Of a stretch of 64,000 nt of DNA, positions 9,001 to 40,948 are shown piece by piece; the first letter of the stretch is position 1, and each line of letters begins with the position of its first letter. Source of the stretch: Chondrosia reniformis (Eukaryota > Porifera > Demospongiae > Chondrillida > Chondrillidae); contig OX359200.1 in the NCBI GenBank assembly GCA_947172415.1, positions 6,698,501 through 6,762,500 on the forward strand, read 5' to 3'. The translations under genes were made by a program, and so were the position numbers. The notes under the pieces are model-generated. The model was not told the DNA's origin and searched no databases. It saw only the letters and a program-made list of their open reading frames with translations.

Positions 9001-12000
9001 CACAGGTATACACCTAGCCTATCTCACACAGGTATATACCTAGCCTATCTCACAGGTATACACCTAGCCTATCTCTCACAGGTACACCTAGCCTATCTCT
9101 CACAGGTATACACCTAGCCTATCTCTCACAGGTATACACCTAGCCTATCTCTCACAGGTATACACCTAGCCTATCTCACAGGTATACACCTAGCCTATGT
9201 TAATGTGGGTGGATATACGTAGCTCCATAATGGAGTGTCTACTTTGTTGTACATTTCATAGAACATACAAGTAAGGACTGATACACAAGAAATGACTTTG
9301 AGTCAGTTTTTGGGAGACTATTTTGACGAGAAGGAACAGAATCCTCAAGAGTTGCTGAATCGGATAGAACTGGAAAAGTAATTTTGTTGTAATGTTTTGT
9401 CTTTAGCTCATACGTACAACTCTCCTGGCCTCTCTCTAAAGTAGCCAAGTGATACTAAGAGCTGCTCCATTTATAAAATTATATACAGTAAATAAAATGT
9501 ATACGTATGTATACACACATACATATACAAATGACCTCTGAACCCATCTCTTAATGAAGCTTTTCAGCAGAAGAGTTTCATACTATTGAAGGAATCAAGA
9601 TAAAACAGCTCTTCACAATTTTGGAGATGTTTGTGAGATGGATCACTGACAGTCTCTTTGATTTCTGTGAACTGCCATTTTCTGTGAAGAGGCCCTTACC
9701 AGAAGGAGTTGCCATTTCTGTGGAGGAGAAAGTTAAATCTAAAATGACCAATCAGCTGTCTGGTATGTGCTTGCCTTATATGGTAGTGGGGTACCTTAAC
9801 CATGTCATTGGTCAGACCATGTATCCCTCCTTTAGATATTCTGGCTCAATTGGTTGAGTTAGAGGAAACAGTGTCTCATGTAGCTCAGGGACTTGGAGCA
9901 GAAAACACAGTGGTAACTTACCAAGGACAATGTTATTGCCATTTTGTGTTGTACAACTGTACAAACAGTTGGTAATTTACAGTGCATACCTACTATTGTG
10001 CAATCTCCTTTCTATAGCACACAATGCCACTCATTGATTACCTTGTAAGCCTTAACTTTTGTGAAGAAAAGGACATGGATTCACAGTTGCTTCCAAAAGA
10101 AGTTTTGCTTCAACATTACATACAGTATGTAGTGATTCTCAGAAAGTGAGTTCTTTGGTCAATTAGTAACTTCAGTTAGTACTCAATAATCCACCATCTG
10201 TCATTTAGATGGAAGTTTATTTTGCAAGAGAAATCAGACTGCATAAATGGAGAACAGGAAACTGTCAGACAAACGGTTGTCTTCCTTGAACTAGTGCCTG
10301 ACATTTGGGAGAGACTGCCTCACTTCCAGGACAACATTGAAAAGATACTATTCTCTCCAGAAGATCTTCTTGATCCAAAAACTATGAAATATAATTTCCA
10401 ACTGACAGATGAAGATCGCCTTTCCTCTGATCAGGATGAATCCGATCAGATCTGGGTAGATCATGACTCAAGTGAGATGGACAAACCTCCACTTTCTCCT
10501 TCCCAGCCTCGGCTAACGAGATTAAACAGTGAATTATTTGAAGGCTTAGGAGAGATTCTCAGTGATGCAACTGTATTTTTGGCTCCTGAATCACCTCCAG
10601 TTCACGAAAGCAAGCAAGAAGTAGAGGAATCTAGTAAGCTGGAAATTAGTACACTGTGTATGTAGTATGTATTTACATAAATATATCTCATTGCTTCATA
10701 TTAATAGTGTATGTATTGTATATGGATAAGATGATTTCCTCATAACATGCTCTAGTGTAGTCCATTGAAAATCTACATATATAATTCAGTAGAGTTTGTG
10801 TGTTTGTTTGTTTGTTTGTTATCGCATTACTCCGTTGTTTCTGGACAAAATGCAGTCTAACTCTCACGGATTATGGAGTATCACTTGGAAAGTGACCTGA
10901 AGTATTTCATTTACGAAAATTCGCCGCTGCGGAGAAGAGCGTCCAGTCTCAAATTTATGTATGGGATAGACGCCATTTTTCATCGTTGTTTGTAACAATG
11001 TAACTCGCCGTCTAGCCGTAGCGGAGCTTTGGTGGGCTTCTATGCTAGTACTATATGATCTAATATTAGACAATTTGTGCATATTTGATTTGTCAGTGAC
11101 CTATTTCTGTACAATGAATATCTGTGTGTTTCTCTGTGCTTAGTACTTCCAACAGAGTCATTGCTGCCATCACTGCCGCCTGCAAGTGAGAAAGCTAAAG
11201 CAATGACCGTGGATGAGATTGTTGAATGGCTGCAAGATAATAAATTTGGAGAATTTGCTGACAAATTTAAGGAAGAAGATGTTGATGGAGAAACACTTGC
11301 AACTTATGATGTAGCAGATCTTGTGGATATGGATGTTCCTCGGAGGAAAGCTAAACAGATCCTCATTAAATTTAGAAGAATTAAATTTAGAAGACAGGTT
11401 CACGAAAGCAAGCAAGAAGTAGAGGAATCTAGTAAGCTGGAAATTAGTACACTGTGTATGTAGTATGTATTTACATAAATATATCTCATTGCTTCATATT
11501 AATAGTGTATGTATTGTATATGGATAAGATGATTTCCTCATAACATGCTCTAGTGTAGTCCATGGGAAAATACTATATTAGATAATTTGTGCATATTTGA
11601 TTTGTCAGTGAGTTATTTCTGTTCAATGAATATCTGTGTGTTTCTCTTAGCAGAGACAGACCAAAGTGTCACAGATGAGCTGGCTTCACATACTGCACCT
11701 ACAAACCATATCTCAAACAATATGTCACACTCTTCAAAGGCACAGATAGTTGTGACTAAATCAGGTGATGGTACTCTACATACTAAATTTTATGCATATT
11801 AATTGTACATATACATATAACAGGATAATATAGCATGCTATGGATAGTTCATTCTACCCTTACAGGAAGTAAACCTCAAAGTAGGCAGGAAGAGCTTCAG
11901 ACACAACAGATAGAAAAGATGAGCTATGATCTAAAAGAGCTCACAAGTTGTTGCCAACAACTAGAAAAGAGGAACTCAAACCTTGAAAATTCATTAAGCC

Positions 12001-13580
12001 AGTTGCATAAGAACACTTGCAGTGAGCTTAGGGAGATTAAAAATGCCTCTAAACTGCAAAAGAATAGTAATGCAAGAGTTGAAGCTTCCGTAAATAAGCT
12101 AGAGCAGACTACTGGAACTGTTATGACAAATATCAGAAGTACTTGTAGGCAACTAGAAGACAGGAGTACAAGAGTTGAAGCTTCATTAAATCAACTAGAG
12201 CAGACTACTGGAACTGCTGTGACAGATATCAGAAGTACTTGTAGGCAACTAGAAGACAAGAGCATAAGAGTTGAAACTTCTTTAAATCAGCTAGAGCAGA
12301 CTACTGGAACTGCTGTGACAAATATCAGAAGTACTTGTAGACAGCTAAAAGACAAGAGCACAAGAGTTGAAGCTTCTTTGAATCAGCTAGAGCAGACTGC
12401 TGGAACTGCTATGACAGATATCAGAAGTACTTGTAGGCAACTGGAAGACAAGAGCACAAGGGTTGAAGCTTCTTTAAATCAGCTAGAGCAGACTACTGGA
12501 TCCACACTGAATGAAATCAGGAATGATTGTAAAGAGAGTAATGCTAGAGTTAAAGCCTCATTAAAGCAGAAAAATGAAGCATTACAGCAGTCACTCTCAG
12601 AAGCAAGAGAGGAAGTTCATCGGATTGCTGTTTCATTGGAACTATCAAAGAAAGATAACCATAATATTCACACTAACTTAAGTGAGAAGTTAGAAAAGCT
12701 AATTGAAAGTAAGAATGAAGTGGAAAGACAATGGTCTGAGCGGTTTTCACAAGCAGAAAGACGCTGGACAGAACAGTTTACAATGGCAGAGAGAAGTTGG
12801 AAAGAGCAATTAGAACATCTAGAGCCATCTTGGAAAATTGAATCCTCACAACTTACAGTAACTGATGAAAAGCTTGGTATGGGTGCCTATGGAGAGGTGA
12901 GGGTTGGAATGTATTGTGGAGGTCAAGTGGCTGTGAAACAGTTGCATGAAGTCATAATCTCTCCTTACGTTAGTAAACAGTTTAACCGTGAAATGCAGCT
13001 CACCTCCCGTCTCCGTCACCCTCAACTGATCCAATTCATAGGAGCAGTCACTACTGATAAAGTAACCCTTCTAGTGACAGAGCTGATGGAGACCAGTCTA
13101 CGTAAGCAGCTTATGCAAGGTAGAATATCCAAGGAGCACATTCTCCCAATCAGTAGAGATGTAGCCTGTGCTCTGAACTACCTTCACTCTCTTCCTGAGC
13201 CCATCATCCATCGAGATGTCAGCAGTGCCAATGTCCTACTCAACTCAAAGCCTGGAGGAGGATGGATGGCCAAATTAGGAGACTTTGGATCAGCCAACTT
13301 TCTTGCCAAGCTGAGCACTAAGTATCCAGGAGCTGCTGTTTATTCAGCACCAGAGAGTGACAACCCAAAGTCACAAGGTCCTTCAATGGATGTCTACAGC
13401 TTTGGAGTTCTGCTATTTGAGGTGTGCACAGGGGAATTCCCTGACCCTGGTCAAAGGGAGGCACTGCGTAGCAGAGTACCTTTTGGAACCAATCAAGTAA
13501 TCACTGTGATAGCCAAAGAGTGTACCTGTTCAGAAGCAGAATATCGTCCCACAATGGCTGCAGTGCTGAAGAGACTGTAA
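1..13580 (+). CDS. Gene A: RNF213-like C-terminal region fused to SAM, coiled coil and protein kinase (5' partial, about 20 exons)
   Basis: The frame is open at base 1, so the N-terminal part (where RNF213 has its AAA+ and RING regions) lies upstream. Exons from 1 to about 10657 encode a large alpha-helical region that I recognise as the RNF213 C-terminal part. Landmarks are HLWYFLFGQSRLEGTFLPGF near 3918-3975, SLHSFYLLNW at 4143, LLPDLVEFYLWLDQRL at 5352, and FDMEKLEGDVVKYFIAGKPH near 6098. A SAM exon follows (11144 to about 11457), then a short linker exon (11651-11770), then one large exon (11866-13580) with a coiled coil and a complete kinase. Checked joins are in frame: 4701/4785, 4834/4895-5189, 6540/9262, 10657/11144, 11457/11651 and 11770/11866. 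Family knowledge: RNF213 is a cytosolic giant E3 ubiquitin ligase involved in lipid droplets and antimicrobial defence. The RNF213 assignment rests on memory of the family and is moderate; the fusion to SAM and kinase is read directly from continuous splicing frames. Confidence 0.72.
1606..1761 (+). repeat. Interspersed repeat R1, copy 1 (intron of gene A)
   Basis: About 155 bp of a roughly 240-bp family seen at least eight times in this window. It carries a purine-rich GAAGAAGATGAAAG block, then CTCCTGTATCCTCATCC, CAGGTTTAGTTCCCCTATAG, and the end block GCATGTAGGAAAATGGTATC. It lies in an intron between exons ending near 1494 and starting near 1849. Confidence 0.7.
2237..2419. mobile_element. 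Candidate pogo/Tigger-like MITE
   Basis: About 183 bp in an intron of gene A, bounded by imperfect inverted termini TATAGTGGAACCT and AGATTCCACTTTA (11 of 13 matching). The termini resemble those of the better supported TA-flanked element at 15029-15220. There is no coding capacity. Confidence 0.45.
4283..4353. repeat. Short tandem repeat, about 17-bp unit
   Basis: Four to five copies of ACCTCTACTTCCTGTAC with one variant, inside an intron of gene A just before the acceptor that opens the exon starting near 4354 (VIISDWQPLRHF frame). Confidence 0.75.
4877..5230 (+). repeat. 42-bp minisatellite carrying a 3' splice acceptor in every unit
   Basis: Eight units, each with a pyrimidine tract and CATTATAG followed by GGTCATGAGC and CACTGTACCCCAG. 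The AG acceptor recurs every 42 bp, giving possible exon starts at 4895, 4937, 4979, 5021, 5063, 5105, 5147 and 5189. Since 42 is a multiple of three and no unit has a stop in the used frame, every acceptor joins in frame to the exon ending at 4834 (phase 2, NELK). Each extra unit adds 14 residues, MSTLYPSSPSHYRV. Confidence 0.9.
6526..9198 (+). repeat. 26-bp minisatellite (about 100 units) repeating an exon end and 5' splice donor
   Basis: The array starts on the last exonic bases CTATCTCTCACAG of gene A and the following donor GTATATACCTAG. It then repeats this exon-intron junction for about 2.65 kb. Most units are 26 bp; 24-bp variants lack one CT or one TA. Recurrent variants (CAGCTAGCC, CTCACACAGGTATATACC) recur in blocks, which suggests higher-order amplification. 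Use of the first donor at 6541 joins in frame to the exon at 9262. Reading on into the array meets TAG within the first unit. Confidence 0.93.
10599..10764 (+). repeat. Local direct duplication, copy 1
   Basis: The sequence from GTTCACGAAAGCAAGCAAG to TCTAGTGTAGTCCAT is repeated almost exactly at 11397-11561. It covers the exon tail HESKQEVEESSKLEISTL, the donor, and the first intron bases. The following intron end (CATATTTGATTTGTCAGTGA near 11078) is also repeated near 11590, so the duplication spans exon tail plus intron around the SAM exon. Confidence 0.9.
10765..11077. mobile_element. Probable insertion in first copy of the local duplication
   Basis: About 300 bp present between the two conserved parts of duplication copy 1 but absent from copy 2 (11562-11589). 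It contains a (GTTT)n tract at 10802-10820. No protein and no clear terminal inverted repeats seen. It may be a short retroelement or MITE, but the class is unknown. Confidence 0.45.
11144..11457 (+). other. SAM-domain exon of gene A, phase 1-1
   Basis: The exon starts after TGCTTAG and encodes a sterile alpha motif: MTVDEIVEWLQDNKFGEFAD, then an EEDVDGETLATY segment and VADLVDMDVPRRKAKQILIK. SAM domains usually mediate protein-protein oligomerisation. The exon enters in phase 1 and, using the GTATGT donor at 11456-11461, also leaves at or near phase 1, so it can be inserted or removed without breaking the frame. Its last part (from 11397) repeats the tail of the preceding RNF213-type exon (HESKQEVEESSKLEISTL), with no intron between SAM and the repeated tail. 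Exact donor position is uncertain by a few bases. Confidence 0.8.
11397..11561 (+). repeat. Local direct duplication, copy 2
   Basis: Second copy of 10599-10764. Here the exon tail is fused in frame directly to the SAM domain, and the donor leads to the exon starting at 11651. Confidence 0.9.
11866..13580 (+). other. Coiled-coil/kinase cassette exon of gene A
   Basis: A single exon after CCCTTACAG, entered in phase 1 (split Gly codon G|GA), ending at the stop codon. About 300 residues of heptad-rich coiled coil come first, including four to five tandem 32-residue units from 12075 to about 12554. A full kinase domain follows: glycine loop GMGAYGEV near 12883, VAVKQ lysine, RE in helix C (FNREMQL), HRDVSSANVLL near 13208, DFG at 13281-13289, YSAPES activation-segment end, and DVYSFGVLLFEV. 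All catalytic residues needed for activity are visible. The catalytic loop lacks the Lys typical of Ser/Thr kinases (HRDxK) and the AAR of animal Tyr kinases, so specificity cannot be told; the overall look is TKL-like. Confidence 0.88.
12075..12554 (+). repeat. 96-bp coding tandem repeat in the gene A coiled coil
   Basis: Units begin at 12075, 12171, 12267, 12363 and 12459, each encoding 32 residues that open RVEASLNQLEQTTGT and end with CRQLEDKST; the last unit diverges. The equivalent region of gene C (from about 39826) has a single unit, so the array expanded in gene A. Confidence 0.92.
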
Positions 13581-15028
13581 TGTAAAACTTGCTACATTTA
13601 CTATCTGTAAATTTCTATAGATATAGAACCTGAACAATCATAATAACGTATAAATTACATTATATTACTTATTTGAAAATCTTTATCTTAACATGTAGAA
13701 TTTATTTTTGTAGTTCATATATGTGTCCCTAATTTAATTATATGATGGCTGAACTGATCATTAATAGAATTATACATGATCACGATCACTTAATGCTTTC
13801 ACAGGAGATCAAATATTGAATACGGAAAGTCAATCAACATTATACATTCTATGTAGATCCTCTGTGTCTGTCATGAGGTTCTCCTTTCAAATAGTATGTC
13901 CATGCTATATTGGGACTTATATTGGACGCTTGCTGACATGACACTGTTAACTTCCCCATCTTGGGAACCTGCGGGTCGGCTTGTTTGGCGTCATACTGAA
14001 TGAGAATGTGGTATGTCTTCTTTGGCTTGAGAACATCGTTGGCCTTGACTACGAAAGCTGGATTATCCATTTGAAACACAAACTGTGTAGATTGGTGGAA
14101 CACATTCTTAAAGGGAATGTTGATACTTGATCCAGCTCTGATGGTAAAGGGTCCTTGAGGTCTGGGAGGCAGACAGTGGCCATACAGAGGAATGATATAG
14201 TCCCCACCAGCAGGAGCGGATATACAGAGAGATGAGACAGTGTCTCCGAGGTGAGACGGCTCAAACTGTACATCTAAATTGACTTCTGTGCCACTTCCAC
14301 CAGCTCCAGCTGAGGGTGCCTGTACAGACTTCTCAACATGAAACTCAGCTGCATCCACCTACGAATATATGTATACATACATATGTGTGAAATGATCAAT
14401 AAGAAATCTACCATTTGTGACTGAAGTGACACCTACCTATATACTGTACGTACGTATATGTGATTATTTCTATGAAATAAGGTGTAATAAAATAAGGCTT
14501 TTTCATTAGATGTTTAAAATGTACCATCACAAAAGTGAACCACATGGTCTAGAAGGGCTAACAGCTGTGCAACACTTTCTCATTAACAATTTAAAATAAA
14601 CATAAAAATGGCTGATAATGTAAATGGTTACCTTGCATGCATACTCTGTCCTTCCTTTGGCAAAGCTCACAAATTTGCAGTTCTTAGTCATACTGGAGCC
14701 AAGAGTAGTCATAAAACGTACTGGCTTCTCTGGAGCAGGGGGCGTGGCCTTTAACCTCAGCTCATACTGATACACACCCAACTCTGAAGCAGACAGTGTC
14801 AATTTTCCTAGAGTGTCACCAGGCTTCAGTGGAAGGAACTCAAAACTGCATAATCCCTTAAAGGAAAATATAAAACATTTACGTAGATCACATATTCACA
14901 TATATATTTGTACTGAGTTTGAAAAAAGAAATTAAGTGATACACATTTGGTGATAATCTACTTTGAAAATAATTCCCCTCTCAAGCTATACCCAAATATA
15001 TGGTATATAAATATCTGTATACATAATA

Positions 15029-24736: not shown

Positions 24737-25109
24737 ATTATGATCATGATCGCATTACGCAATGTCGTCAGGTGATATTCTGTGACCACGCTCCGCTCTA
24801 ACTGTGGTGAAAGAGAGGCTATAAGCTCACTTCGATGTATTGGCTGTCAGTAGTCTAAATTGGTGCGTAGCTATAGGGTTTTAGGTATGAGAAATTATAA
24901 ATATCTTAAAAATAAAACCTACAACTTTGCTTGCTTACATATGTGATGCACCACCTCCGAACACTCGGTGCTTGTATGTGGTTGTCGAGGAAATTGTTTT
25001 GGGATTTTATTTCTAGAACGTACTAGCTACTGCTCCCTTATTTCACATATTTTTCATCATAGCAGTAAATACATACTATCACAAGGATTTCTCGTGTTTC
25101 TTAGATTCA
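24737..25109. other. Intergenic, 5' flank of gene B
   Basis: No gene or repeat recognised beyond the hAT target duplication. The promoter of gene B probably lies here, but no convincing core element can be named. Confidence 0.4.
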
Positions 25110-28100: not shown

Positions 28101-31100
28101 TAACTGCTAAAGTACTCAATCAGCTGTCTAATGCTCTCAGAGCTCCCAGTGGTTCATTGAAATCACAAGTTAGAATTGCATTGAAGGAGAAGGTAATTGT
28201 TAGGAATAGCAATTGTAGAATCATTATCATGTCCATTTGGTGATACATATGCTAGTATACTGAAAGCATAGTGAATACCTATTTTACAGCAATAGCAATC
28301 ATGGTAAATACGTACGTAAATATCCTATTTTACAGTTTCTTGAGTTGCTAAGGGAACAATTGGACAGTTTTACAATTGATCAGTTTCTAGAGTATTACAA
28401 AAGTATTCCAAACATACCTCCTGAGGTTGGTGATAATACAGTATTCATATGTACATTGATTATATGTAGTGAAGTTGATTATGTATGTTGATGTATGCAG
28501 TTGGTTGAAGAGTATTTGAAAAGTATTAAAGCAAGTAGACACACGTGGATGAGGATTGGCTCTTCTCCAATTTTTGCTGGTCTTTTAGCAGAATTCTTTA
28601 AAATGTAATTACAATCAATTTAATAATATACATGTACATAAATGCATAATGTTTGATGTACTGTAACTAACATAAAATTGGAGACACTCTCTGTAATTAT
28701 GTCTTGTAATCTTGTCTTTATAGCTGGCCAAGATGTAGTAGTCGCTACCACAAGTGTTTCATTGAATTGTTTAAAACCTTTTGTGAGAGCGGTAGACCAC
28801 AACATACTGTTGTGTCAGATCTTCTCAAATTGACAGATCAACATCTCCTCTCAACTGAGTTTGTCAGAGAACAGGAAACTGTTGATATAATGGAACTTCA
28901 GAGAGACTTTAAGCAATTTCTCAAGAATTTAATTTATAAGAATAGATTGAAAGATCCAGTTACTAATGACTTTATGTCATTCCTTGTAAGTAAGAAAGCA
29001 TAATAAATTATTACTTGGAGATTATATTTTATGTTTATTTTGTAGAATTCCAAGAAAGGGACAGTGATCCTATCTCCTATTCAAACTGTAGTTCTATCAG
29101 TCTTTGCTGAGGTTAGGCATTTGAAGTCCAGGTTTGTGCAATGAGAATTGTGAATTTAATATATAGATTTTAAAAACAAGTATTTCAAGTTTAAAAAACT
29201 CGTGGGGCGCCAGGCACCCTAAGTAAACTACTTGGCTGGTTCTCATAGATATCCGGTTAACCGATTTCCGGTCAACTCTTGTTGGCCGTCAATTTTTCAA
29301 GGCCGTATCTCGTAGAAAACGTTTTGCGCAAGCTTTACGTTACATAGTATCAGTATAGGTGGTTTCTAAATCCTTTTCGTTAGTTCAACGTTCGACGCAA
29401 AGGAAGAGAAAGCTAATTTTAAGCTAGAAAACGAAAGCCAGCCGAGCATCTGCCATTTTGGTGACAGATATATATACAGTACAAGTTACAATATACTAAG
29501 GTAATCTAATATAATATAAATAAATAATATAAATAATTCATATGGCTCCAGGAAAGGACTTAGCAACAGAATGGGCATAGTATCATAAAGATTAGGGACC
29601 TGGGTATAAAACTCATTTTTAATTAAGGGATTTTTTATTTAGGTCTCTGTTTGGTAGAAAACGTAGGATAAAGTCTGCATATAAAAGCCCATAGGACTAT
29701 AGAAAAGCTACAGAAAATTTATATTGAAACCAAGTGTTATATTAGTAAAAATTTTCAATTTGTCAGATAACTGTGAAACCGACATATATCATGGTACATG
29801 TATATGACAAACGTCTGGCGAAGTTTTGCTTAATTAAATGAGCAAAATAATCAAGATATAATGAAGAATTCAAGGTTACGATTGCACAATCTGGTGATGT
29901 ATTGTGATGTTTTCTAGTGCGTCACCAACACCTCTCGTATATCGCTCTGTACACATTTAGTAAATCATGTGACGTTCCGAAAACGTCACCGCCAAGTTGC
30001 TAAAGAAGATCATCCCTTTGTGAACGGCTATGACAAGTCGTTGCTCTCCTACAAGAAGGAGCTAGCGAACAGGCGAGTTGTAGCGAAGGTTAGATAAAGC
30101 GTTTTTGTATACGTCCCCGTCAAGTTTGAGGCAGAGTTGTTCCTATATTGATGCGAAAGACTGAATTCGTTTGGTCGACCGTATTACTTTGGTAATTTAA
30201 GCTCTGTCTTCTCTTCTTACGTTATCTGTTAATATTTTTACTTGTCCATGTGTAGGAATAAGGAGTGTTTGTTGCGATCATTATGAGAATAAAGCCTTGT
30301 TGAGCGTCAGCAACATGAATTTACTAATTTCCTACTTGATATTCCCATTCCTTTATTACTGATGAAGAATTCCGGGTTGAAACGTCCAGAATTAGTAAAT
30401 TTTTGTTACTGATGTTCAACAAGGCTTTATTCTTATCCATGTGTGTACGTTTTCCATGTGTACAGTAGAATCTCATAACGAAATTGCTCATAGTGAATGT
30501 CTTAAGTATAGTGAAGGCTAATTACACTCAATTACACTACACAGTGAAAGTTACTGGCAATATTAAAATTACAATCAAGTACTACACAGTACAAGTTACA
30601 AATATAACAGGGCCAAGTGACTGTACAATATTAAAATTACAATCAAGTACTAGCTACACATTCAGTGCAAGTTACAAATTTAAAGAGATCCAAGTGACCC
30701 CTAGGATAATCAGTATTTTAAACAGTACAAGACTTTAGTCACACTAGTATACTGTTGCAGGGTTTGAAATCCTCAACTACTGCATAGAGAGTAGTAGTTG
30801 ATACAGATCATCCAATTGCAAGGTAGAACACATGGCCTACCAATTACCTTTTCACACCTTAGTATAGACTGAAGATGATGCATCTGCATGCCATATATCA
30901 ACAAAGGTTCCAGTATTAAAGGGGTCTCAGCTAATAACCACAGCAGATTTGATTTGCCTTGTGAGGGAGCTAAGAACACCGACGGTTGGTTGTATGCATT
31001 CGCATAATCAACAGGGTTAGAGACCATTTTGTAACTTGTACACAAGGGACATCACATACAGATATAAGGCCTTGGCCTTTTTTGTCCTTGTCACTTGAAT

Positions 31101-34100
31101 CTCTTTAAATTTGTAACTTGCACTGCATGTGTAGCTAGTACTTGAATGTAATTTTAATATTGTACAGTCACTTGGCCCTGTTAAATTTGTAACTTGTACT
31201 GTTTAGTACTTGATTGTAATTTTAATATTGCCAGTAACTTTCACTGTGTAGTGTACTTGAGTATATATATACGTATATATATATATATATATCAAGTACT
31301 ACACAGTGCAAGTTACAAATTTATACATGGATGCAAGTGACTCCCAAGATAATCACACTGAGGTATATAATATAATACGGATGCAAATGACTCCCAAAAT
31401 AATCACAATCAGGTATATATATTAAACGCTACAAGACTTTAGCCACACTGAAATTCTCAACTGCTGCATACAGAGTAGTAGTCTACAGATCATATAAGGT
31501 TAAACACATGGCCTTCCAATTACCTTTTCACACCTTAGTATAGACTGAAGATGATGTATCTGCATGCCATTATCAGCAAAAATTCCAGTCTCATGCATGG
31601 GGTCTCAGCCAATAATCACCGCAGATTTGACTTGCCTTGAGTGTGAGCTAGGAGTACCATTGGTTGCTTGCATGCATTCACATAAACAACAGGGTTAGAG
31701 ACGATATGGTAACTTGCACACAAGGGACATTGTTCATGAAATAAGGCCCCAGCCTTTATGTCCCTGTGACTAAACGAATTTCTTGTGCATCAATATAGGG
31801 ACAATTCTGCCTCAAACTTAACGGGAACGTATACAAATACACTTTATCTAACCTTCGCTACAACTCGCTTATTCGGTAGCTCCTTCTCTTAGGAGAGCGT
31901 CGACTTGTCATAGCCGTTCTCGAAAGGATGATCTTCTTTAGCAACGAGGCGATGACGTTTACGCAACGTCACAAGATTCACAAAATGTGTGTACGGAGCG
32001 ACATACGAAGGTGTTGGTGACGCATTAGAATAACATCATAAAACATCACCAGCTTGCGCAATCGTAACCTTGAATTCCTCATTATATCTTGATTATTTTG
32101 CTCATTTAATTAAGCAAAACTTCGCCAGACATTTCTTATACACATGTACCATAATATATTTTGATTTCACAGTTATCTGACAAATTGAAATTTTTTATCA
32201 ATATAACACATGGTTTGCATATAAATTTCCCATAGGTTTTCTATAGTCCTATGGGCTTTTATATGCAGACTTTGTCCTCTGTTTTCTAACAAACGGAGAC
32301 CTGAATAAAAAATCCCTTAGTTAAAATGAGTTTTATACCCTAAACTTTATGATGATATGCCCATTTCGTCCTTTTTTGGAGCCATATGAATTATTTAATT
32401 ATATTATTTATTTATTTATTTAGATTACCTTAGTATATTGTAATTTGTACTGTATATACATTGAATAGGGCGGCCATGTTTTTTTCGCCCATCCCTAGTA
32501 CTCTCTGATATATATATACAAGGTTACGAACAGGAAGCCATACGTTAACATAATTTCTGAAAACAATATAGGGGTGCCTATAGCTATGGCGCCCCAAATA
32601 TAAAAATGAACTCAAAAGTACATAGGGATGGTAGTACTTGCAACTGTGACTAATACATTTAGAAAAAGTAACTAAACAAGGCAATAATAGTATGATTAGG
32701 ATACCAACATACTTACCTATGTAGCTGAGTAGTAATATTATTATTAATATTATTTAATAATTAAATAATTAATTTAAGCACCTGTACTATTTTATTAGTA
32801 TTTAAGTAATTTTTCCTCCTGTTGTATAGTTTTGCTATATTGGTAGTGTCGCTGAACTCACTGACAAAGCCCAGTCTCCAGGTACAAGGTCTGTCAGGTT
32901 TGTCATTAGTAAACTTGAACAGTATTACAAGGACCAAGCTATTTGGAACAGTCCAGTTCCCGTTCCCCTCAACTGGTACTGGGAGATCCTAGATCGTACC
33001 TGTAAATTGGTCAATCCACACCAGCCTGACCTGTCATTGTGTGCTGATACAGTTCCTATCATTCAAGTCATATCAGTATATAGTGCCTTTGTTAAGTGTT
33101 TCAAATTAATTGGACCACTGGAGGAGGTTCCTGATTGTGTACAGGGAAGTGCCAATCCTCACATGAAGAGTTACTTCAAATGGATTGTGGATCTACAAAA
33201 TCTCAATACAATTTGGCAGAATAGGATCCTGATGGGTGATTGTGCTCTACAAGAAATCCAGTGTTTTTGTACCTACCAAGTTCCAATTGGTAATTTCTTT
33301 AAACATCTCCAAATAGAATCTTTTCATTTGACCCTGGAGATTGCTACAGAGAAAATGACCTTGATAAATAGGCTCAAAGAAGCTACCAAGGAAATGCTGG
33401 TATTCACACACAAAGATGGCAGAAAGTATGTAATTTAGGTATCTTTAGTTTTCATGTATTTACTTGTATCTGTTTCATATACGTATGTGTAGGTGCTCAT
33501 TGATGGCAGTCCTTAAACGTTACAATCTTTCCATTCCTACAAACCTGTTTGATCATCTTCAAGAATCTATAACCAAGTGCAGCGAGAGGCTGTTTGCCAA
33601 TCATGTGTACTCATCTGAGGATGAGACAGTTGAGGATATTTTCAATCCAGATTTAAAAGTAAAATCCTTCGTCACTTTTCACTTAATACTTTCAGATTTT
33701 CTGACCCCACTGACACACTATTTGGAATTTATTGTCCACTTTGTCATGAATGAGAGTCAGTTGATTGATCAACACTTAAGAGAGAGGATAAAGGCACACA
33801 CTTCATCAGCCTCTCAGCAACCACAATCTGGTACAGAGGGACACTTTCCAGATGCTGTAGATGTGCCTAACTCTTGTGCAGTTTCAGAATTACCAGTGGA
33901 AGTGAGTTTCTGTTCATATTGTATACACTTAAGTTGAATTTCCGGTTCAAGTTATACGTACAATCAAAACTTAATAAATTGTAATTTCTGAAGAACTTCC
34001 ATGTATGTAGTGACTGAATTAGTCTGATAAATACTACTTTTGCGATATCATACATAAAGTTGTCCTATGTTATGTTCACTTATATTTAAGCTACATCCTA

Positions 34101-37095
34101 TAATTTTTAAATGGCACTCTAAATTAGCAGAATATGTTTCTTGTGCTGACAGTTTTAAGTATATAACCTGTAAGTATCTGTCCGCTGGTATCATTTTACA
34201 GATTTTTGTCAAGGCCCTCCAGGAAACTCAGTCTCATTTTCAATGTATATTTGAGGGAACAGAGGTACAGATACATACATATATGTAGTTAATCAGCCAA
34301 TGAACACTGCAATGGACATAATTTTATGCGTACTGATACAAAGTAAACACTTGACACATTAAAACCTCTTCAATCAAATCAATTGTAATTGGTATAATAA
34401 GTGCATGGCTAATACAATTGAACCCTGTTAGATGAAATGGTCGGGACCATTACAAATTTCGGGTTATAACAGAGATTTTATCTTAACAGAAATCATATTT
34501 TTTATACATGTATATACAAAACTGTGTAAAGTATAAAGTGTACATAGTTAGTAACGTTTCCTACTATATAGCTGTTAAAAGGGTGTTTCCTCTATGCCGT
34601 TGTACGTGGACATTTTTAATCATTATTTAGAAGGCTCAAACGATACTGTACGATTCTTAATGGTAGCCAATACGGTTGAGTTTCCCAAACCTTTTTACTA
34701 CTGCCGTCTTTATTACTGATTGACTGGCACTCTAATCTAAAGCTTTAATAATTTATTTCTTATCCTTGAAGAGAAAGCACTTTTGCTTGTATAGCCATTA
34801 TATATAGATTCTTCAATAAAATTTCACCTTATCCGAAATATACAAAATATTATAGTTATGTATATATTTTGTAAGCACCAGGAATTATGGTTACAATTCT
34901 TAATTCCTTTGATTTTAATAATCTAACAAACTACATATGCATGGACTATACTACTTTATCTATTTATGCTCTTTCTTGAAGGTACGTATGTACATATGGA
35001 TAAATATGTATATATGTACTTATGTACATAGTTTATAGACTCTTGTTACTTTAGTTTTAATATAGAATCAGTTGCTCTTATGCTCGTACAGTACAACAAT
35101 GTGGTTCACAAAATTCACTAGTATAGATAGTCCTATACTAGTGAATTGTGGGTGCTAATTGCTATAAAATTAGTCTAAAATGTTTTACAGAATAGGCATA
35201 GCATGTAGGAAAATGGTATATTAGAGTTTTCATGGTTACTCTATTGTGGAAAGTGGTTGATTATGTACGGTTTTAAATACGGTTCTCTGTTGTCTTTAAT
35301 AGTTTTTTAGAGAAAAAAAGACTCAACATCAGCCTCAAAGTCTACAAGATATATCAGACTCAGGTCAGTTCCTCTATAATATCAATTTGTAGTCCCTCAT
35401 GTGTGTACATATATTACAAGTAAATAAAAAAAACATTTACAAAAGTGATGTTAGAAGTAGGAATGGCAGTGTTCACTAATACATCTGCAAAAAGTATCGA
35501 AACAAGACACTGATTATATGATAAGGCTAATCATACAGAAGTTGCATATACACTGAAATTTAAGTAACTTAACCATACACTTCTGTGTTTGGGTGCACTA
35601 AGTAGGAATGTAACATATAAGTTAGTATATACATGTAGGGTCTGTACAATCATAGCAATGTCCTACTTTGTTGATAGTACACTATTAACTCTATCCTTCA
35701 GGAGGTGTTCACTATTTCTTGCACTCCAGTAGTGCAGCCTTGCAGGAGAGTAACCAACAGATTGAGAAGATAGGTTCCGAACTTAAGGATGTTCAGGACA
35801 AGATAACAGAAGAAAATGTTCAAATGAAAGCTTCTCTAACCCAAATTCAGCATGATGCTAGAGCTGAGCTTGAGATGGTCAGAGATGAATGTCACCATTT
35901 GAAAGAGAAGAACACAGCGGTTGAAGTCTCCTTAAGTCAGTTACAGCAAAATACATTGTCTGAGCTGAGAGATGCTAAGAGTGATCTAGGAGAGCTAAGA
36001 AATGAATATATTGAAACTTTAAACGACCTGCAGCTGAACACAGGAGCCAAATTGAGGAAGTTGGAGAGTGATTATGAAAGTGAAAATGTTGGCATCAAAT
36101 CTTCCATGTCACAATTACAGCAACAAAATGAAACACTTCAGATCTCGTTATCAGAAGCTAAAGAGGAGGTCAATCAGCTAAGGGTGTCACTGGATCAGTC
36201 AAAGGAAGAGAATCAAAGCCTTAATACACTGGTGGCTAGCTTAGGACGAGATGTTCAAAAGCTTATAGATAACAAGAATGAGATAGAAGGACAATGGAGA
36301 GAGCGGTTTGACCAGATAGACCAACGGTTGAAGGAGTTGGAGCCATCTTGGAAAATTGAGTCCTCACAGCTTAACATAACTGATGAAGAGGTTGGTAAGG
36401 GTGCCTATGGAGAAGTGAAAGTTGGATTGTATTGTGGAAGTCAGGTGGCTGTGAAACAGTTGCATGAAGTCATAATCTCTCCATACTTTAGTAAACAGTT
36501 TAACCGTGAAATGAAACTTGCCTCCCGTCTCCGTCACCCTCAACTGGTCCTCTTCATAGGAGCAGTCACTACTGGTACACTGACCATAGTGACAGAGCTG
36601 ATGGAGACCAATCTACGTAAGCAGCTTATGCAAGGTAGAATATCTGAGGAGCACATTCTCCCAATCGGTAGAGATGTAGCCTGTGCTCTGAACTACCTTC
36701 ACTCTCTTCCTGAGCCCATCATCCATCGAGATGTCAGCAGTGCCAATGTCCTGCTCAACTCAAAGTCTGGAGGAGGATGGATGGCCAAATTAGGAGACCT
36801 TGGATCCGCCAACTTTCTTGCCAAGCTGAGCACACAAGCTCCAGGAGCTGTTATTTATGCTGCACCAGAGAGCCTCGATCCAGCCTTGCAAGGTCCTTCA
36901 ATGGATGTCTACAGCTTTGGAGTGCTGCTATTTGAGGTGTGCACTGGGGAACTCCCTGACCCTGGTCAAAGGAAGGCACTACGTAGCAGAGTGCCTTTTG
37001 GAACCAATCAAGTAATCACTGTGATAGCCAAGGATTGCACCTGTTCAGAAGCAGGATATCGTCCCACTATGGCTGCAGTGCTACCGAGACTGTAA
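25110..37095 (+). CDS. Gene B: unrecognised helical region fused to coiled coil and protein kinase (about 20 exons)
   Basis: Proposed start ATG at 25110 (MAEKREQAEVVIEDD). Well-supported exon blocks: 26411-26550, 26625-26741, 26812-26934, 27010-27140, 27291-27340, 27394-27557, 27668-27830, 27971-28192, 28336-28425, 28501-28604, 28724-28985, 29046-29131, 32830-33425, 33493-33658, 33696-33901, 34202-34264, 35303-35363 and 35702-37095. Roughly 950 residues before the cassette are leucine-rich and helical, for example FRILKQ, LLLLVIEKNPKLTAKVLNQL and IGSSPIFAGLLAEFF; I recognise no family. An RNF213-type stalk is possible but unproven. An acidic segment ending IEDD/DEDD and a GWFHF(V/G)KKGGYS motif both occur twice near the 5' end (25110-25435 and 26411), with a frame problem in the first copy, so early exon structure is uncertain. 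The 26741/26812 join is also not cleanly in frame. Confidence 0.7.
25500..25985. other. Intron sequence of unknown origin, possible MITE
   Basis: Long intron of gene B after the GATGACC|GTATGTAC donor at 25436. ACGGTAGTAGACTACT near 25528 and ACGGTAGTCTACTAGAAC near 25948 look like related ends, and the GAACGCCATTTTTCAATT block near 25861 recurs as GGACGCCATTTTTTAATT near 25995. No coding sequence. Boundaries unproven. Confidence 0.35.
26108..26404. mobile_element. Foldback MITE with about 120-bp arms
   Basis: The left arm (ATACAAGTTAAATAAAACAT to about 26240) is the near-perfect inverted complement of the right arm (about 26270 to 26404). Conserved words are GGGATGGCACTATAGCAATG, GGCGCATCTAGAAAAAG and AACATTGCA. 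The right end abuts the acceptor of the next gene B exon at 26411. Diverged relatives occur near 23994, 32600 and 35440. Confidence 0.85.
30240..30455. mobile_element. Nested inverted-repeat element
   Basis: Ends CTTGTCCATGTGTAGGAATA and its inverted counterpart near 30430-30450 flank inner inverted blocks GAATAAAGCCTTGTTGA and TCAACAAGGCTTTATTC. It lies between the outer arms of the composite insertion. Confidence 0.65.
30490..31745. repeat. Core of composite insertion: inverted plus direct repeats
   Basis: 30520-30710 is inverted at about 31090-31255 (GTACAAGTTACAAAT, GGGCCAAGTGACTGTACA). 30765-31075 is repeated directly at about 31440-31750 (TTACCTTTTCACACCTTAGT, CAACAGGGTTAGAGAC, ACACAAGGGACAT). 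An AT dinucleotide run is at 31264-31292. No gene. Confidence 0.7.
32600..32705. repeat. Diverged relative of the 26108-26404 foldback
   Basis: Contains AAAAATGAACTCAAAAGT, AGGGATGGTAGTAC and ACATTTAGAAAAAGTAACTA in the same order as the left arm of the foldback element. Only one arm is visible. Confidence 0.5.
34413..34500. mobile_element. Tigger/pogo-like transposon end (fragment)
   Basis: ACAATTGAACCCTGTTAGAT, then GGTCGGGACCATTACAAATT and CGGGTTATAACAGAGATT, resembles terminal sequences of Tigger/pogo MITEs. The opposite end was not found. It lies in the 34265-35302 intron of gene B, which otherwise holds AT-rich sequence and an R1 fragment. Confidence 0.4.
35184..35235 (+). repeat. Interspersed repeat R1, fragment
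   Basis: TTTTACAGAATAGGCATAGC through GGAAAATGGTATATTAGAG matches the 3' end of R1. Confidence 0.65.
35430..35600. repeat. Diverged relative of the 26108-26404 foldback
   Basis: AGAAGTAGGAATGGCAGT, ACATCTGCAAAAAGTATC, AACAAGACACTGATTATATG and ACTTCTGTG follow the foldback order, in the last intron of gene B. Confidence 0.5.
35702..37095 (+). other. Coiled-coil/kinase cassette exon of gene B
   Basis: Starts after ATCCTTCAG, entered in phase 1 with a split Gly codon (G|GA) from the exon ending ISDSG. About 200 residues of coiled coil are followed by a complete kinase: GKGAYGEV, VAVKQ, FNREMKL, HRDVSSANVLL, DLG at 36796-36804 in place of DFG, YAAPES and DVYSFGVLLFEV. The coiled coil differs from A and C, while the kinase C-lobe is nearly identical to C. 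DLG is tolerated in some active kinases. Confidence 0.88.
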
Positions 37096-37361
37096 TGTAA
37101 AACTTGCTACATTTACTATCTTAAAAAATTACATTATATTACATATTTGAAAATCTTTATCTTAACATGTAGAATTTATTTTTGTAGTGCTATAAAAGAC
37201 AAATTCTTTTGTTCATATATGTACATGTGTCCTTAATTTTAATTATATGAAGACTCAACTGATCGTTAATAGAATTATACATAAATACAGCATGATCATG
37301 ATCACTTTCAACAGGAAATCAATTATAATTGAATACAGAAAGTCAATAAACATTATACAAT

Positions 37362-37862
37362 CTATGTAGATCCCCTGTGTCTGTCATGAGGTTCTCCTTT
37401 CAAAAAGTATGTCCATGCTATATTGGGACTTATATTGGACGCTTGCTGACATGACACTGTTAACTTCCCCATCTTGGGAACCTGGGGGTCTGCTTGCTTG
37501 GCGTCATACTGAATGAGAATGTGATAAGTCTTCTTTGGTTTGAGAACATCGTTGGCCTTGACTACGAAAGCTGGATTATCCATTTGAAACACAAACTGTG
37601 TAGATTGGTGGAACACATTCTTAAAGGGAATATTGATACTTGATCCGGCTCTGATGGTGAAGGGTCCTTGAGGTTTGGGGGGCAGATAGTGGCCATACAG
37701 AGGAATGACATGGTCTCCACCAGCAGGAGCGGATATACAGAGAGATGAGACAGTGTATATATATAAATTATTGACTTCTCTGAGGTGAGACGGCTCAAAC
37801 TGTACATCTAATTGGATGCAGCTGAGTTTCATGTTGAGAAGTCTGTTGGCACAGAGGTCAAT
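37362..37862 (-). pseudogene. HYDIN: HYDIN last-exon fragment with micro-inversion
   Basis: Most of the HYDIN last exon (VQFEPSHL through GEPHDRHRGST) is present with its stop codon. It differs from both other copies by an insertion (about 37752-37778, TATATATATAAATTATTGAC) that breaks the exon body. From 37814 the exon start is inverted: the plus strand reads GGATGCAGCTGAGTTTCATG, the complement of the expected order, with an internal deletion. No upstream HYDIN exon follows; the VPS35 last exon comes next. It is a dead fragment left by duplication. Confidence 0.85.
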
Positions 37863-38005
37863 AATTTATATAAAATAGAGAAATTTACTACTTCAATTTT
37901 GATAGCTTTAGAATACATAATTATTAATTTAGATTATCAAGCCTTATACTGTACTGACAGTACATTATATTAGACTCTCCCTTTAATGTCTTTCTTCTCT
38001 CTCAG

Positions 38006-38191
38006 ATAACTCCCTCCTTCCTGAAGCAACTCATTGACAAGATTAAAGACGAGTTGACTAAACTAGAAGACAATGATGAGGCTAAACAGATTAAGCAACA
38101 CTTCCTGAATACACTGACACACATCAAACTGAAACAGAGGCTTTCCTCAGAAGGAGAAGGACCAAGTTACGATGGCATTGTAGTGCAGTAG
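38006..38191 (+). pseudogene. VPS35: VPS35 last-exon fragment
   Basis: One exon after TCTCTCAG, nearly identical to 23642-23830 (KQLIDKIKDELTKLE, IKQHFLNTLTHIKLK) with the same end GPSYDGIVVQ and stop. No other VPS35 exon is nearby. It carries about 40 bp of the same upstream intron (CTCCCTTTAATGTCTTTC), showing a genomic and not retro-copied origin. Confidence 0.88.
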
Positions 38192-38339
38192 AACTGTCAG
38201 TATTAGAACATGAAGTGGACATAACTCTAAAGAGATGCATGCATTAGTGATTTTGGATAAATTTAAATCTTAATAAAATCATTTCGTTATTATTAATGTC
38301 AGCACTAGATTAGGTTTACACTGGCGTATGACTATGGTT

Positions 38340-38760
38340 TATAGCTCATCCATTTTATAGGGTTAGATTTGGGTTGATTTATATAATACTCCGTTGCCGG
38401 GGCAACCGTCTGTGTTTAAATTTCGTAACCGTGATATAACAGGATTTAAGAAGCTATATACTGCATCGGCTTCTTAAATCCTGTTATATCCCTGCCCAAT
38501 ATGGTAAACTAAGACGTTTCTTCTTGGAGGGGACAATTCTCCTTACATTTAGGACAGTTGGAGTAGTCAGGGCAAGAGCATTCTATGAAGTCGTTAGCGT
38601 TTAAGCAAAACTAACCAAACGCTAGATGAGCCATCCTGAAAGTCCCGCCAAAATAACGATAAGAAGCTTCGGAGTATACCACTCATACCATGGCGCTTCG
38701 GTGTACATGGATTTTATACGTACTCGCCCTCGGGCGCGTTGTATAACTAATACATATATA
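38340..38760. repeat. 5' flank repeat of gene C, with perfect hairpin
   Basis: TACTCCGTTGCCGGGGCAAC followed by TGTGTTTAAATTTCGTAAC, and later TTATACGTACTCGCCCTCGG with GTATAACTAATACATATA, both recur in order at 41168-41300 downstream of gene C. Within it, 38433-38454 and 38469-38490 form a perfect 22-bp inverted repeat (GATATAACAGGATTTAAGAA arm) with a 14-base loop. The promoter of gene C may lie in or beside this repeat. Confidence 0.65.
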
Positions 38761-38796
38761 CTAAGAATATTTACAGCACATGCGCAGTTACAAGAT

Positions 38797-40948
38797 ATGG
38801 CAACTAGAGGAACTGTTGTTCTGCTTGGTAAAAGGGGAACTGGTAAATCAACAATAGCCAATGTCATTTATGGGGGAGAAGACGAACTGCGACGAACAGA
38901 GAGTCACCGACTATTTACTGTAAGGTCTAGTACCACATCATTATGGTGTGCTATTACAATTCTTAAACCACCAGGAGATGATGCTACATACCATATTACA
39001 GTTATCGACACTCCTGGGTTTTTCGATACCAACAGCAAAATAAGTAATAAAAAGATCATCGAAGATCTGAGAAAGTACTTTATTGAGAACATCCCCGATG
39101 GCGTTAGCTTGGTTATTTTTGTCATGCGCAAGAATCGCTTCACCCAAGAAGATCAAGATGTATTCGATTTTTTGAGGGAATCTCTTAGTGAACAGATTGG
39201 TGGCATTTCAGCTTTGTTGATTACTCATTGCGATTGCGAATGCGCAAGCGAACGGAAGAGGTTTCTGGAAACTTTTAAGTCTGGGAAGGAAAGTGGAAAG
39301 GTTGCTAAGTTTATGGGTAAAGGAGTGTACACTGTCGGTTTCCCTGATTTATCTACAACACGTGAAACTTTAATTCCCATGTTAAAAGAAGATATCGAAG
39401 TGGTCCGCAAGCTTGTTTATGAAAGCAGTGGTGCATTTATACTTGCTAAGGAAATGTTTATTGAAAAAAACCGGAAATGGTTTTTAGGTAAATGTTATAT
39501 TTTATCTAGTTATATTTTTAGTAAATATAAGTATATATTAGTCCATGTACACAATAATTTAGGTACTTGCGTTGTACGTTTATATATGACAGGATATCAT
39601 ACACACTATGATATATATTTTATATTTCTTCTTACTAGGTAATGTTGCTAAAAGGCCAAAAGAACTTCAGGCACAACAGCCGAAGTATGATCTGAAAGAG
39701 CTCACAAGTAGTTACCAACAACTAGAAAAGAGGAGCCCAAGCCTTGAAAATTCATTAAGCCAGTTACAAAAAGACACTAACACTGAGCTGAGAGAAATTA
39801 AAAATGCCTCTAAACTGCAAATTGCAAGAGTTGAAGCTTCTTTAAATCAGCTAGAGCAGACTACTGGATCCACACTGAATGAAATCAGGAATGATTGTAA
39901 AGAGAGTAATGCTAGAGTTAAAGCCTCATTGAAGCAGAAAAATGAAGCATTACAGCAGTCACTCTCAGAAGCAAGAGAGGAAGTTCATCAACTTGCTGTT
40001 TCATTGGAACTATCAAAGAAAGATAACCATAATATTCACACTAACTTAAGTGAGAAGTTAGAAAAGCTAATTGAAAGTAAGAATGAAGTGGAAAGACAAT
40101 GGTCTGAGCGGTTTTCACAAGCAGAAAGACGCTGGACAGAACAGTTTACAATGGCAGAGAGAAGCTGGAAAGAGCAATTAGAACATCTAGAGCCATCTTG
40201 GAGTATTGATCCTTCACAACTTACAGTAACTGATGAAGAGCTTGGTAAGGGTGCCTATGGAGAAGTGAAAGTTGGATTGTACTGTGGAGGTCAGGTCGCT
40301 GTGAAACAGTTGCACCAAATCATAATCTCTCCTTATTTTAGTAAACAGTTTAACCGTGAAATGCAGCTTGCCTCCCGTCTCCGTCACCCTCAACTGGTCC
40401 TCTTCATAGGAGCAGTCACTACTGATAAAGTTACCCTTCTAGTGACAGAGCTGATGGAGACCAGTCTACGTAAGCAGCTTATGCAAAGTAGAATATCCAA
40501 GGAGCACATTCTCCCAATCAGTAGAGATGTAGCCTGTGCTCTGAACTACCTTCACTCTCTTCCTGAGCCCATCATCCATCGAGATGTCAGCAGTGCCAAT
40601 GTCCTGCTCAACTCAAAGTCTGGAGGAGGATGGATGGCCAAATTAGGAGACCTTGGATCCGCCAACTTTCTTGCCAAGCTGAGCACACAAGCTCCAGGAG
40701 CTGTTATTTATGCTGCACCAGAGAGCCTCGATCCAGCCTTACAAGGTCCTTCAATGGATGTCTACAGCTTTGGAGTGCTGCTATTTGAGGTGTGCACAGG
40801 GGAACTCCCTGACCCTGGTCAAAGGGAGGCACTGCGTAGCAGAGTACCTTTTGGAACCAATCAAGTAATCACTGTGGTAGCCAAGGATTGCACCTGTTCA
40901 GAAGCAGGATATCGTCCCACTATGGCTGCAGTGCTGCCGAGACTGTAA
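38797..40948 (+). CDS. Gene C: AIG1/GIMAP-type GTPase fused to coiled coil and protein kinase (666 aa)
   Basis: Two exons, 38797-39487 and 39639-40948, join in phase 1 across a GTAAAT...TACTAG intron (FLG|NVAKRPK) to give 666 codons. The start is MATRGTVV, just before the GTPase; the frame is open upstream to 38626, but that part looks non-coding. The AIG1-type GTPase (residues about 5-210) has G1 GKRGTGKST (11-19), G3 DTPGF (71-75), the AIG1-type box FVMRKNRFTQEDQ (about 110-125) and G4 THCD (143-146). A coiled coil spans about 240-425. The kinase (about 430-660) has GKGAYGEV from 433, VAVK at K453, HRD 544-546, DLG 568-570 and APES. GIMAP GTPases act in lymphocyte survival and immunity in vertebrates and AIG1 in plant defence. 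A GTPase-kinase fusion would let nucleotide-driven oligomerisation activate a kinase; that mechanism is inference. Confidence 0.9.
39639..40948 (+). other. Coiled-coil/kinase cassette exon of gene C
   Basis: Phase-1 entry through a split Gly codon (G|GT). The coiled coil is nearly identical to gene A from RVEASLNQLEQTTGS to LEPSW (apart from HQLA for HRIA). The kinase C-lobe is nearly identical to gene B (STQAPGAVIYAAPESLDPAL, DLG). One copy of the 32-residue unit is present against four to five in gene A. Confidence 0.9.

Follow-up and report, generated by a model that had tools for sequence, protein, structure and literature searches.

Coiled-coil and kinase cassettes behind RNF213-like, CYLD-like and AIG1 front ends in the sponge Chondrosia reniformis, with signs of recombination and gene conversion

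Background

Fusions of G protein-coupled receptors (GPCR) with tyrosine kinase-like (TKL) or other kinases (GPCR-TKL/K) and with tyrosine kinases (GPCR-TK) are described from choanoflagellates and sponges, with sponge examples for GPCR-TK, and that study infers repeated independent fusion and possible domain swapping (PMC12716839). AIG1 genes that also encode a protein kinase are known from the snail Biomphalaria glabrata; the source describes their kinase domain as N-terminal and states that AIG genes are, as far as known, lacking in the sponge Amphimedon (PMC7053062). Here, we present an analysis of a stretch of 64,000 nucleotides from the demosponge Chondrosia reniformis (contig OX359200.1, positions 6,698,501 to 6,762,500, or C12:6698501-6762500; "the window"), in which three predicted genes, termed A, B and C, end in homologous cassettes of a coiled coil and a protein kinase.

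RNF213, CYLD and the GIMAPs, to which the front ends of the cassette genes are compared below, have links to ubiquitin or immunity in vertebrates, and CYLD is a regulator of ubiquitin and NF-kB in other animals. Wheat has kinase fusion resistance genes, Sr43 among them, in which kinase domains are reportedly joined to varied other domains of immune genes. Searches of open-licence PMC papers brought up none that deals with fusions of RNF213, CYLD or AIG1 to a kinase in sponges.

Results

The cassette family

A first-pass annotation of the window had noticed that genes A, B and C terminate in single-exon cassettes of coiled coil and kinase, and this was confirmed: open frames follow the acceptors and start at 11866, 35702 and 39639. 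The parts of the three genes are listed with window positions; splice scores (donor/acceptor) are on a scale of our own.

1..11764, + strand: RNF213-like 3′ part of gene A; SAM exon 11156-11431, linker exon 11654-11764 (ab initio models)
11765..11865, + strand: intron A, predicted phase 1, G/GA, scores 5.3/6.6
11866..13580, + strand: cassette A, coiled coil and TKL-type kinase at 12819-13577 with G-loop, VAVK, HRD and DFG
25105..35363, + strand: N-terminal part of gene B, RNF213-like stalk exons 32882-33425 and 33493-33901, small junction exon 35303-35363 (ab initio)
35364..35701, + strand: intron B, predicted phase 1, G/GA, scores 6.2/7.0, same splice sites in the C14 paralogue
35702..37095, + strand: cassette B, C14-like coil and kinase at 36337-37092, DLG for DFG
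38797..39487, + strand: N-terminal exon of gene C, AIG1 (GIMAP-type) GTPase, start codon chosen by us
39488..39638, + strand: intron C, predicted phase 1, G/GT, scores 4.7/6.4
39639..40948, + strand: cassette C, coiled coil and TKL-type kinase at 40187-40945, DLG for DFG

The first-pass annotation had also proposed a search for further cassettes together with a listing of their partners. This was run over the genome of this one sponge (15 contigs, 117,379,552 bases) with the kinase of cassette A; 150 of 281 candidates were scored, so that all family counts are lower bounds. At least 12 loci were found, 11 of them unbroken. Besides A, B and C they comprise a copy at C14:4.144 Mb (C14), another at C5:1.170 Mb (C5), six copies at C12 7.098-7.147 Mb (cy1-cy6) and the broken cy7 at C12:7.255 Mb. 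Among the candidates scored the edge of the family is sharp: the weakest unbroken member reaches 267 bits and 56% identity and the next kinase 100 bits and 36%.

Directly upstream of each of the 12 cassettes lies a partner module, which is RNF213-like at four loci (A, B, C14, C5), AIG1 at one (C) and CYLD-like at seven (cy1-cy7). The earlier idea of a reusable kinase output on different front ends was thus borne out with respect to the number of loci and the three partner families; for the window itself it has to be revised, two of its three modules belonging to the same family.

The solved kinases nearest to the cassette kinase are CTR1, RAF and TNNI3K, which are TKL kinases. G-loop, VAVK and HRD are present in 12/12 aligned rows and the Pfam protein kinase profile matches cassettes A and C with E ~1e-35. 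The cassette kinase is a distinct family, classified from these best matches and motifs as probably of TKL type, and it is apparently active. At the DNA level cassettes A and C align at 85-90%. The coil, a label given by reading to heptad-like sequence, varies in length through tandem repeats, such as 4.5 copies of 96 bp in A (12073-12500) and 28 copies of 42 bp in cy4.

RNF213-like front ends

Gene A extends beyond the window: its stalk exons, lying 5′ of an AAA part, continue at least ~19 kb upstream, and the gene reaches C12:6.680 Mb or further. A match to solved RNF213 (9/9 matched sequences, best E 3e-35) was obtained with exons at C12:6.689-6.698 Mb, which contain the RNF213-type AAA core, while SAM_1 and SAM_2 pass the Pfam cut-off barely; the earlier label, RNF213-like plus SAM, therefore stands. 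With the window part of gene A alone, PDB phmmer gave no solved-structure match. The gene models are ab initio with a raised intron penalty (a lower penalty gave an excess of short exons).

Stalk and AAA part follow each other in the same order and on the same strand at seven loci, six of which carry no cassette, gene A being the only one that does. In contrast, the three stalk loci without an AAA match (B, C14, C5) all carry a cassette (3/3). The stalk itself had no credible solved or Pfam match (PDB phmmer, which includes solved RNF213 sequences, with a stalk profile and from stalk exon 3 onward), and it is assigned to RNF213 because it precedes the AAA part at seven loci.

Identity to the stalk of gene A is 62% in B, 61% in C14 and 35% in both C5 copies. 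This disposes of the idea that the module of gene B has no relatives, and with it of the earlier claim of three unrelated N-terminal modules: modules A and B are both RNF213-like, B being 62% identical to the stalk that precedes the AAA part of gene A. No Pfam match was obtained for the N-terminal part of gene B and no PDB phmmer match for gene B. At B, C14 and C5 the stalk was found alone, with no AAA match, and we group these front ends with the stalk of gene A and do not call them RNF213. The joining point lies after SAM in A, after the stalk in B and C14, and within a stalk exon in C5, where one open frame of 665 codons spans stalk, coil and kinase.

Two of these genes also carry repeats in their introns. 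A 26-bp satellite occupies 6541-9198 in gene A, and a repeat of this kind also follows the corresponding exon in the RNF213-like paralogue at C12:4.668 Mb. An intron of gene B contains the inverted repeats 29468-30176/31768-32461 (86.6%) and 30523-30698/31090-31265 (96%), which look like nested mobile elements.

AIG1 and CYLD-like front ends

The AIG1 domain already named in gene C was recovered in two Pfam scans (2.4e-14 and 2.6e-15); its score of 56.8 bits compares with a curated cut-off of 27 and with 34.5 for the next profile, MMR_HSR1. Genome-wide there are 44 AIG1-profile matches, 40 over the cut-off, and one of the 44 lies within a cassette gene; the profile passes its cut-off in 8/14 control genomes and also matches bacterial GTPases, so that not every one of the 44 is a GIMAP. 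A short element (38391-38723) with a palindrome at 38433-38490 immediately precedes the AIG1 exon of gene C, and the open frame from 38626 starts inside this element. A 90% copy of this element is found in the C14 relative of gene B, whereas B is without it.

Among the CYLD-like loci, the front end of cy3 matches the CYLD catalytic structure 2vhf with E 4e-53 and has CAP-Gly by Pfam, Pfam UCH remaining slightly below its cut-off; the USP pieces of cy2 are 59-94% identical to those of cy3. CAP-Gly together with a CYLD-type USP is therefore assigned to cy2 and cy3. No USP match was obtained in cy1, cy4, cy5, cy6 or cy7, such matches being confined to cy2, cy3 and C12:7.159 Mb. CAP-Gly was found by Pfam in cy4, cy6 and cy7; cy1 and cy5 are CYLD-like by paralogy read from translations, and no open third CAP-Gly was seen in cy1. 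A further CYLD-like copy (C12:7158710-7161150) showed no cassette within the flank examined.

Directly upstream of cy6 lie RBR frames similar to RBCK1/HOIL-1 (C12:7140428-7142272, L044; solved RBCK1 match E 1e-39), with a piece of a CYLD-like exon repeated just 5′ of them. A fusion of RBCK1/HOIL-1 to cy6 was considered and rejected, an ab initio model having merged two genes; the CYLD-like frame has its own ATG at ~7143035. In mammals, HOIL-1 and CYLD have the same ubiquitin chains as targets. The array of CYLD-like cassette genes is a repeating unit with a membrane-type frame downstream (C12:7120169-7120468, with counterparts after cy1, cy2 and cy3), and aldehyde-dehydrogenase-like frames lie on the opposite strand near cy1 and cy5; both kinds of frame were named by eye.

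Probable recombination within the kinase

Gene B aligns with C14 over 34021-37252, introns included, at 74-90% in pieces, its stalk exons being 92-93% identical to those of C14; past 37252 its 3′ flank aligns with A and C. Within the kinase exon the affinity changes: 126/131 informative sites are C14-like before kinase codon 44-48 and 55/62 are C-like after it (0/10000 permutations; 2 sites matching neither relative were dropped). The front end of gene B and its kinase C-lobe thus differ in their nearest relatives. Gene B may be the recombinant, or C14 may be a copy with a later kinase change.

For the family as a whole, fourfold sites in codons for the same amino acid were compared between a core (kinase columns 66-163) and its flanks, one-sided, in each of the 55 pairings that the 11 unbroken cassettes allow, cy7 being omitted. 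The core window was picked after a sliding table and pairs share sequences, so that the p-values are optimistic and non-independent; fourfold status was set by the first sequence of a pair, and the order shifts a few counts by one or two. All between-clade pairs without C5 (35/35) had silent core sites far more alike than the flanks (p <0.001), as in A-cy4 (40/42 vs 19/49), cy4-cy6 (43/44 vs 9/41) and, as the weakest, cy3-cy6 (44/47 vs 34/54). The same level was reached by 0/10 within-clade pairs and by 1/10 pairs with C5 (C14-C5, 24/36 vs 9/37), the other C5 pairs pointing in the same direction with p 0.0015 to 0.045.

This likeness of the core at silent sites therefore implies gene conversion. 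It is unlikely that the core is instead frozen at silent sites, as C5 shares just 23/38 core fourfold sites with A. A run-length permutation, which needs no window, gave at most 25 of 10000 for A-cy3, A-cy4, cy3-cy4, cy3-cy6 and A-cy6, the run of cy3-cy6 being located at codons 166-188, outside the core. The core of C14 may have been converted before this copy moved to another chromosome.

A kinase tree without the core (one outside kinase, L028; rooting not relied on) separates C5 with cy4/cy5 (100/98) from cy1-cy3 (99/99) and from a clade of the window cassettes plus C14 (100/99); a coil tree was made without cy6 and cy7. Because the RNF213-like C5 groups with the CYLD-like cy4/cy5, the histories of partner and kinase disagree. 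On this tree the labels RNF213-like and CYLD-like are each split, which by our count suggests at least three partner changes.

The ratio of nonsynonymous to synonymous change (dN/dS) of the cassettes is 0.46 for A-C, 0.35 for cy2-cy3, 0.56 for cy4-cy5 and 0.50 for B-C. For B-C14 it is 0.39 in the kinase, 0.76 in the coil and 0.35 in stalk exon 2, and the 20-codon junction exon has no silent change at dN 0.11.

Junctions of front ends and cassettes

According to the first-pass annotation the cassettes are always joined at a phase-1 intron splitting a Gly codon. In the window this is correct, with ordinary splice scores for introns A, B and C. Family-wide, "always" does not hold: phase 1 is well supported at 5/12 loci, namely A, B, C and C14, each of which splits Gly, and cy6 (G/AT, Asp; 6.0/6.7), and weakly at 4/12 (cy2, cy3, cy5, cy7), while Gly is split at 4/12. 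Donors in cy5 and cy7 score 4.0 and 3.9 and their acceptors fall under the listing threshold of 4.5. For cy1 a phase-0 junction fits best (8.1/6.2), and in C5 no intron is required. Of the expectation that other members share the phase, what survives is that phase 1 is the commonest state; cy1 and C5 depart from it. The open frame of C5 is no proof that an intron is absent, because a 108-base GT-AG stretch within it could splice in frame as a phase-1 intron (G/AG, 6.5/3.0).

As 34/99 introns in the ab initio models (exons of at least 40 bases) are phase 1, little weight attaches on its own to the finding that homologous acceptors have the same phase. G/GN is the usual outcome of the AG/G splice consensus. 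Homologous acceptors are expected to share phase and Gly by descent; the strong facts are the homology of the cassettes and the change of partner.

Flanks of the cassettes and the tail of gene A

Further features bear on how the cassettes moved and how gene A acquired its tail.

11365..11647, + strand: rearranged stretch; 15-bp tandem repeat at 11365-11394, copy of 10600-10786 at 11398-11587 (96.8%), copy of 11063-11135 at 11575-11647 (94.5%)
13849..14358, - strand: HYDIN-like 3′ end after cassette A, shared 3′ flank
37362..37865, - strand: shortened copy of the HYDIN-like 3′ end after cassette B, from alignment
41405..60242, - strand: HYDIN-like gene after cassette C, Hydin_ADK 58.8 bits at 59385-60242; more minus-strand frames to the window end

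An RNF213-like paralogue at C12:6.635 Mb, to which gene A is 93% identical over 11133-11386, has TAA directly after SAM. In gene A, small duplications abolish this native stop. The duplicated copies are predicted to supply two splice sites, a donor after SAM and an acceptor in front of the linker exon 11654-11764; this exon in turn is joined to the cassette.

The 3′ flank on the HYDIN side is common to cassettes A, B and C. Cassette plus flank, including the HYDIN end, align at 90-92% between A and C, and from the kinase start into the 3′ flank identity is 86% for A-B and 89% for B-C. At 41408-41914, a copy of the HYDIN-like 3′ end, Cep192/CFAP65 matches are below the cut-off, and the name HYDIN comes from the Hydin_ADK match at 59385-60242. 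A VPS35-like 3′ end lies at 22150-23830 (Pfam Vps35 E 2e-25); its last exon, 23613-23924, is copied to 37976-38281 at 91%, and this copy between genes B and C is debris of a segmental duplication.

Introns A and C share a gapped local alignment of 44 columns (11803-11846 with 39572-39613) with a score of 34 against a shuffle mean of 18.7, and 0/300 base-composition shuffles scored as high; looser scoring carries it over the acceptor into the exon. The pairs A-B and B-C were not significant in the same test (92/300 and 56/300 shuffles as high). The stretch shared by A and C fits intronic exon shuffling, because exon shuffling predicts shared intron sequence.

Discussion

We favour, with a probability of roughly 0.6, the reading that the cassette is a recombination-prone kinase output module which has repeatedly been attached to front ends of ubiquitin or immunity type and whose cores are exchanged by gene conversion. 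The joins appear to have been made by DNA recombination, in part within the kinase itself. Intronic recombination, recombination inside the kinase exon and segmental duplication would each have placed the cassette downstream of RNF213-like, CYLD-like and AIG1 front ends, and gene conversion would keep the loci alike enough to recombine and permit swaps of front ends, as the mosaic of gene B suggests. In the putative fusion proteins, the front end (the RNF213-like AAA part or stalk, the CAP-Gly region of CYLD or the AIG1 GTPase) could bind a trigger or oligomerise; the coil of variable length would self-associate and gather the kinases for trans-activation, and these might relay a signal linked to ubiquitin or immunity.

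Several observations weigh against this reading. Concerning the recombination, three of eight run-length tests were not significant (C14-cy1 4370, A-C5 9814 and cy4-C5 1598 of 10000), C5 and cy6 have long branches that were flagged by the tree program, and after the breakpoint in gene B 7/62 sites are still C14-like, three of them clustered at codons 100-104. Concerning the products, the kinase of cy7 is broken into two pieces, DLG replaces the DFG of the other rows in B and C, the acceptors of cy2 and cy3 (G/TA, Val) score 1.4 and -0.1, and no clear donor was seen at the junction of cy4. Pfam searches of gene A, run to E 1 for the upstream part and to 0.01 for the part inside the window, detected neither RING nor RZ in a gene model that is ab initio and may miss exons, and a ligase function of gene A is for this reason unsupported. 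Stalk exon 1 of B-C14 has a dN/dS of 1.47 (dN 0.090, dS 0.061, 180 codons) and no sign of purifying selection. Judged from substitution rates, the kinase looks constrained, while in B-C14 neither stalk exon 1 nor the junction exon gives a sign of constraint. Finally, the choice of partners may have a plainer reason and partly reflect location, most RNF213-like and all CYLD-like loci found being on C12, an account which AIG1 in gene C and the copies C5 and C14 fit less well.

Some of these points would also be expected if the fusions were a by-product of segmental duplication, in which cassette and HYDIN-end flank were copied together, joined by chance to whatever lay upstream and left mostly non-functional or decaying. 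The flank common to A, B and C, the shortened HYDIN piece at B and the 91% copy of the VPS35-like exon agree with such a course, as do the broken cy7, the third CAP-Gly that was not seen open in cy1 and the ratio in stalk exon 1. We nevertheless consider it unlikely, given that 11/12 kinases are open with the checked motifs, that dN/dS is 0.35-0.56 in the cassettes and 0.39 in the B-C14 kinase, and that B and C14 retain the same junction splice sites. It is less probable still that front ends and cassettes are separate genes, every cassette being an independent kinase gene driven by a promoter of its own. The weak splice sites of cy2 and cy3 and the want of a clear donor at cy4 would suit separate genes, and the unspliced CYLD frame of cy2 and cy3 hits a stop just past the predicted donor; but the 665-codon frame of C5 links stalk to kinase, donors and acceptors in A, B, C and C14 are in phase and score well, and 12/12 cassettes have a partner module upstream.

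Exon shuffling through a phase-1 intron, the explanation offered by the first-pass annotation, is consistent with the Gly junctions of A, B, C and C14, with the phase of cy6 and with the intron stretch shared by A and C, and as one route among several it may be kept. As a universal rule, every join passing through a phase-1 intron that splits Gly, it is contradicted by the breakpoint inside the kinase exon of B, by C5 with no intron needed, by cy1 with phase 0 as its best reading and by Gly at 4/12 loci, and we regard it as very improbable.

More tentatively, the preferred reading of an exchangeable output module can be extended to a modular innate system of the sponge, leading from sensor to kinase, in which a self-associating output is plugged again and again onto intracellular sensors built on ubiquitin or a GTPase (RNF213-like, CYLD-like and AIG1) and conversion of the core acts as the plug that keeps outputs interchangeable and makes new pairings. 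This is possible and on balance doubtful. An immune role of the fused genes, suggested earlier for the window, is proposed here by analogy, solely on the ground that vertebrate RNF213, CYLD and GIMAPs have ties to ubiquitin or immunity; it gains a little from the added partner CYLD, a regulator of ubiquitin and NF-kB elsewhere. Spliced fusion proteins, kinase activity and activation driven by the coil are likewise conjectural; direct observation covers the sequence itself and its homology, the families to which the partners belong, the mosaic of gene B and the pattern at silent sites.

Comparison with known systems

Gene A matches RNF213 in the AAA core and differs by its SAM and kinase at the end, and no RING or RZ was found in its model; in B, C14 and C5 only the stalk is retained. 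The CYLD-like loci have the CAP-Gly domains of CYLD in common, with USP catalytic pieces at two cassette loci (cy2, cy3), and differ from CYLD in the coiled coil and kinase that follow the third CAP-Gly region or the USP domain. GIMAPs have coiled coils, as does the cassette of gene C. The snail genes resemble gene C in having AIG1 and kinase in one gene; in gene C the kinase is C-terminal and, unlike theirs, shared with RNF213-like and CYLD-like genes.

Wheat genes of the Sr43 type are plant genes with a known resistance phenotype and other front ends, whereas the cassette genes are known here from sequence alone. The GPCR-kinase fusions of choanoflagellates and sponges have the kinase C-terminal to a receptor-type front end as in the cassette genes; their front ends are seven-transmembrane, whereas those of the cassette genes are RNF213-like, CYLD-like and AIG1, with a recombination breakpoint visible in the DNA. 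C-terminal kinase fusion of repeated origin is thus a known kind of event, and what is new is the set of partners and the visible recombination. If our reading is true, one kinase shared by front ends of RNF213-like, CYLD-like and AIG1 type would connect three intracellular modules which in vertebrates are linked to ubiquitin or immunity, and would point to a downstream output that they have in common. The family also documents legibly how multidomain proteins are rebuilt: through an intronic junction, a breakpoint in a catalytic domain, small duplications by which a stop was lost, and gene conversion between loci with different partners.

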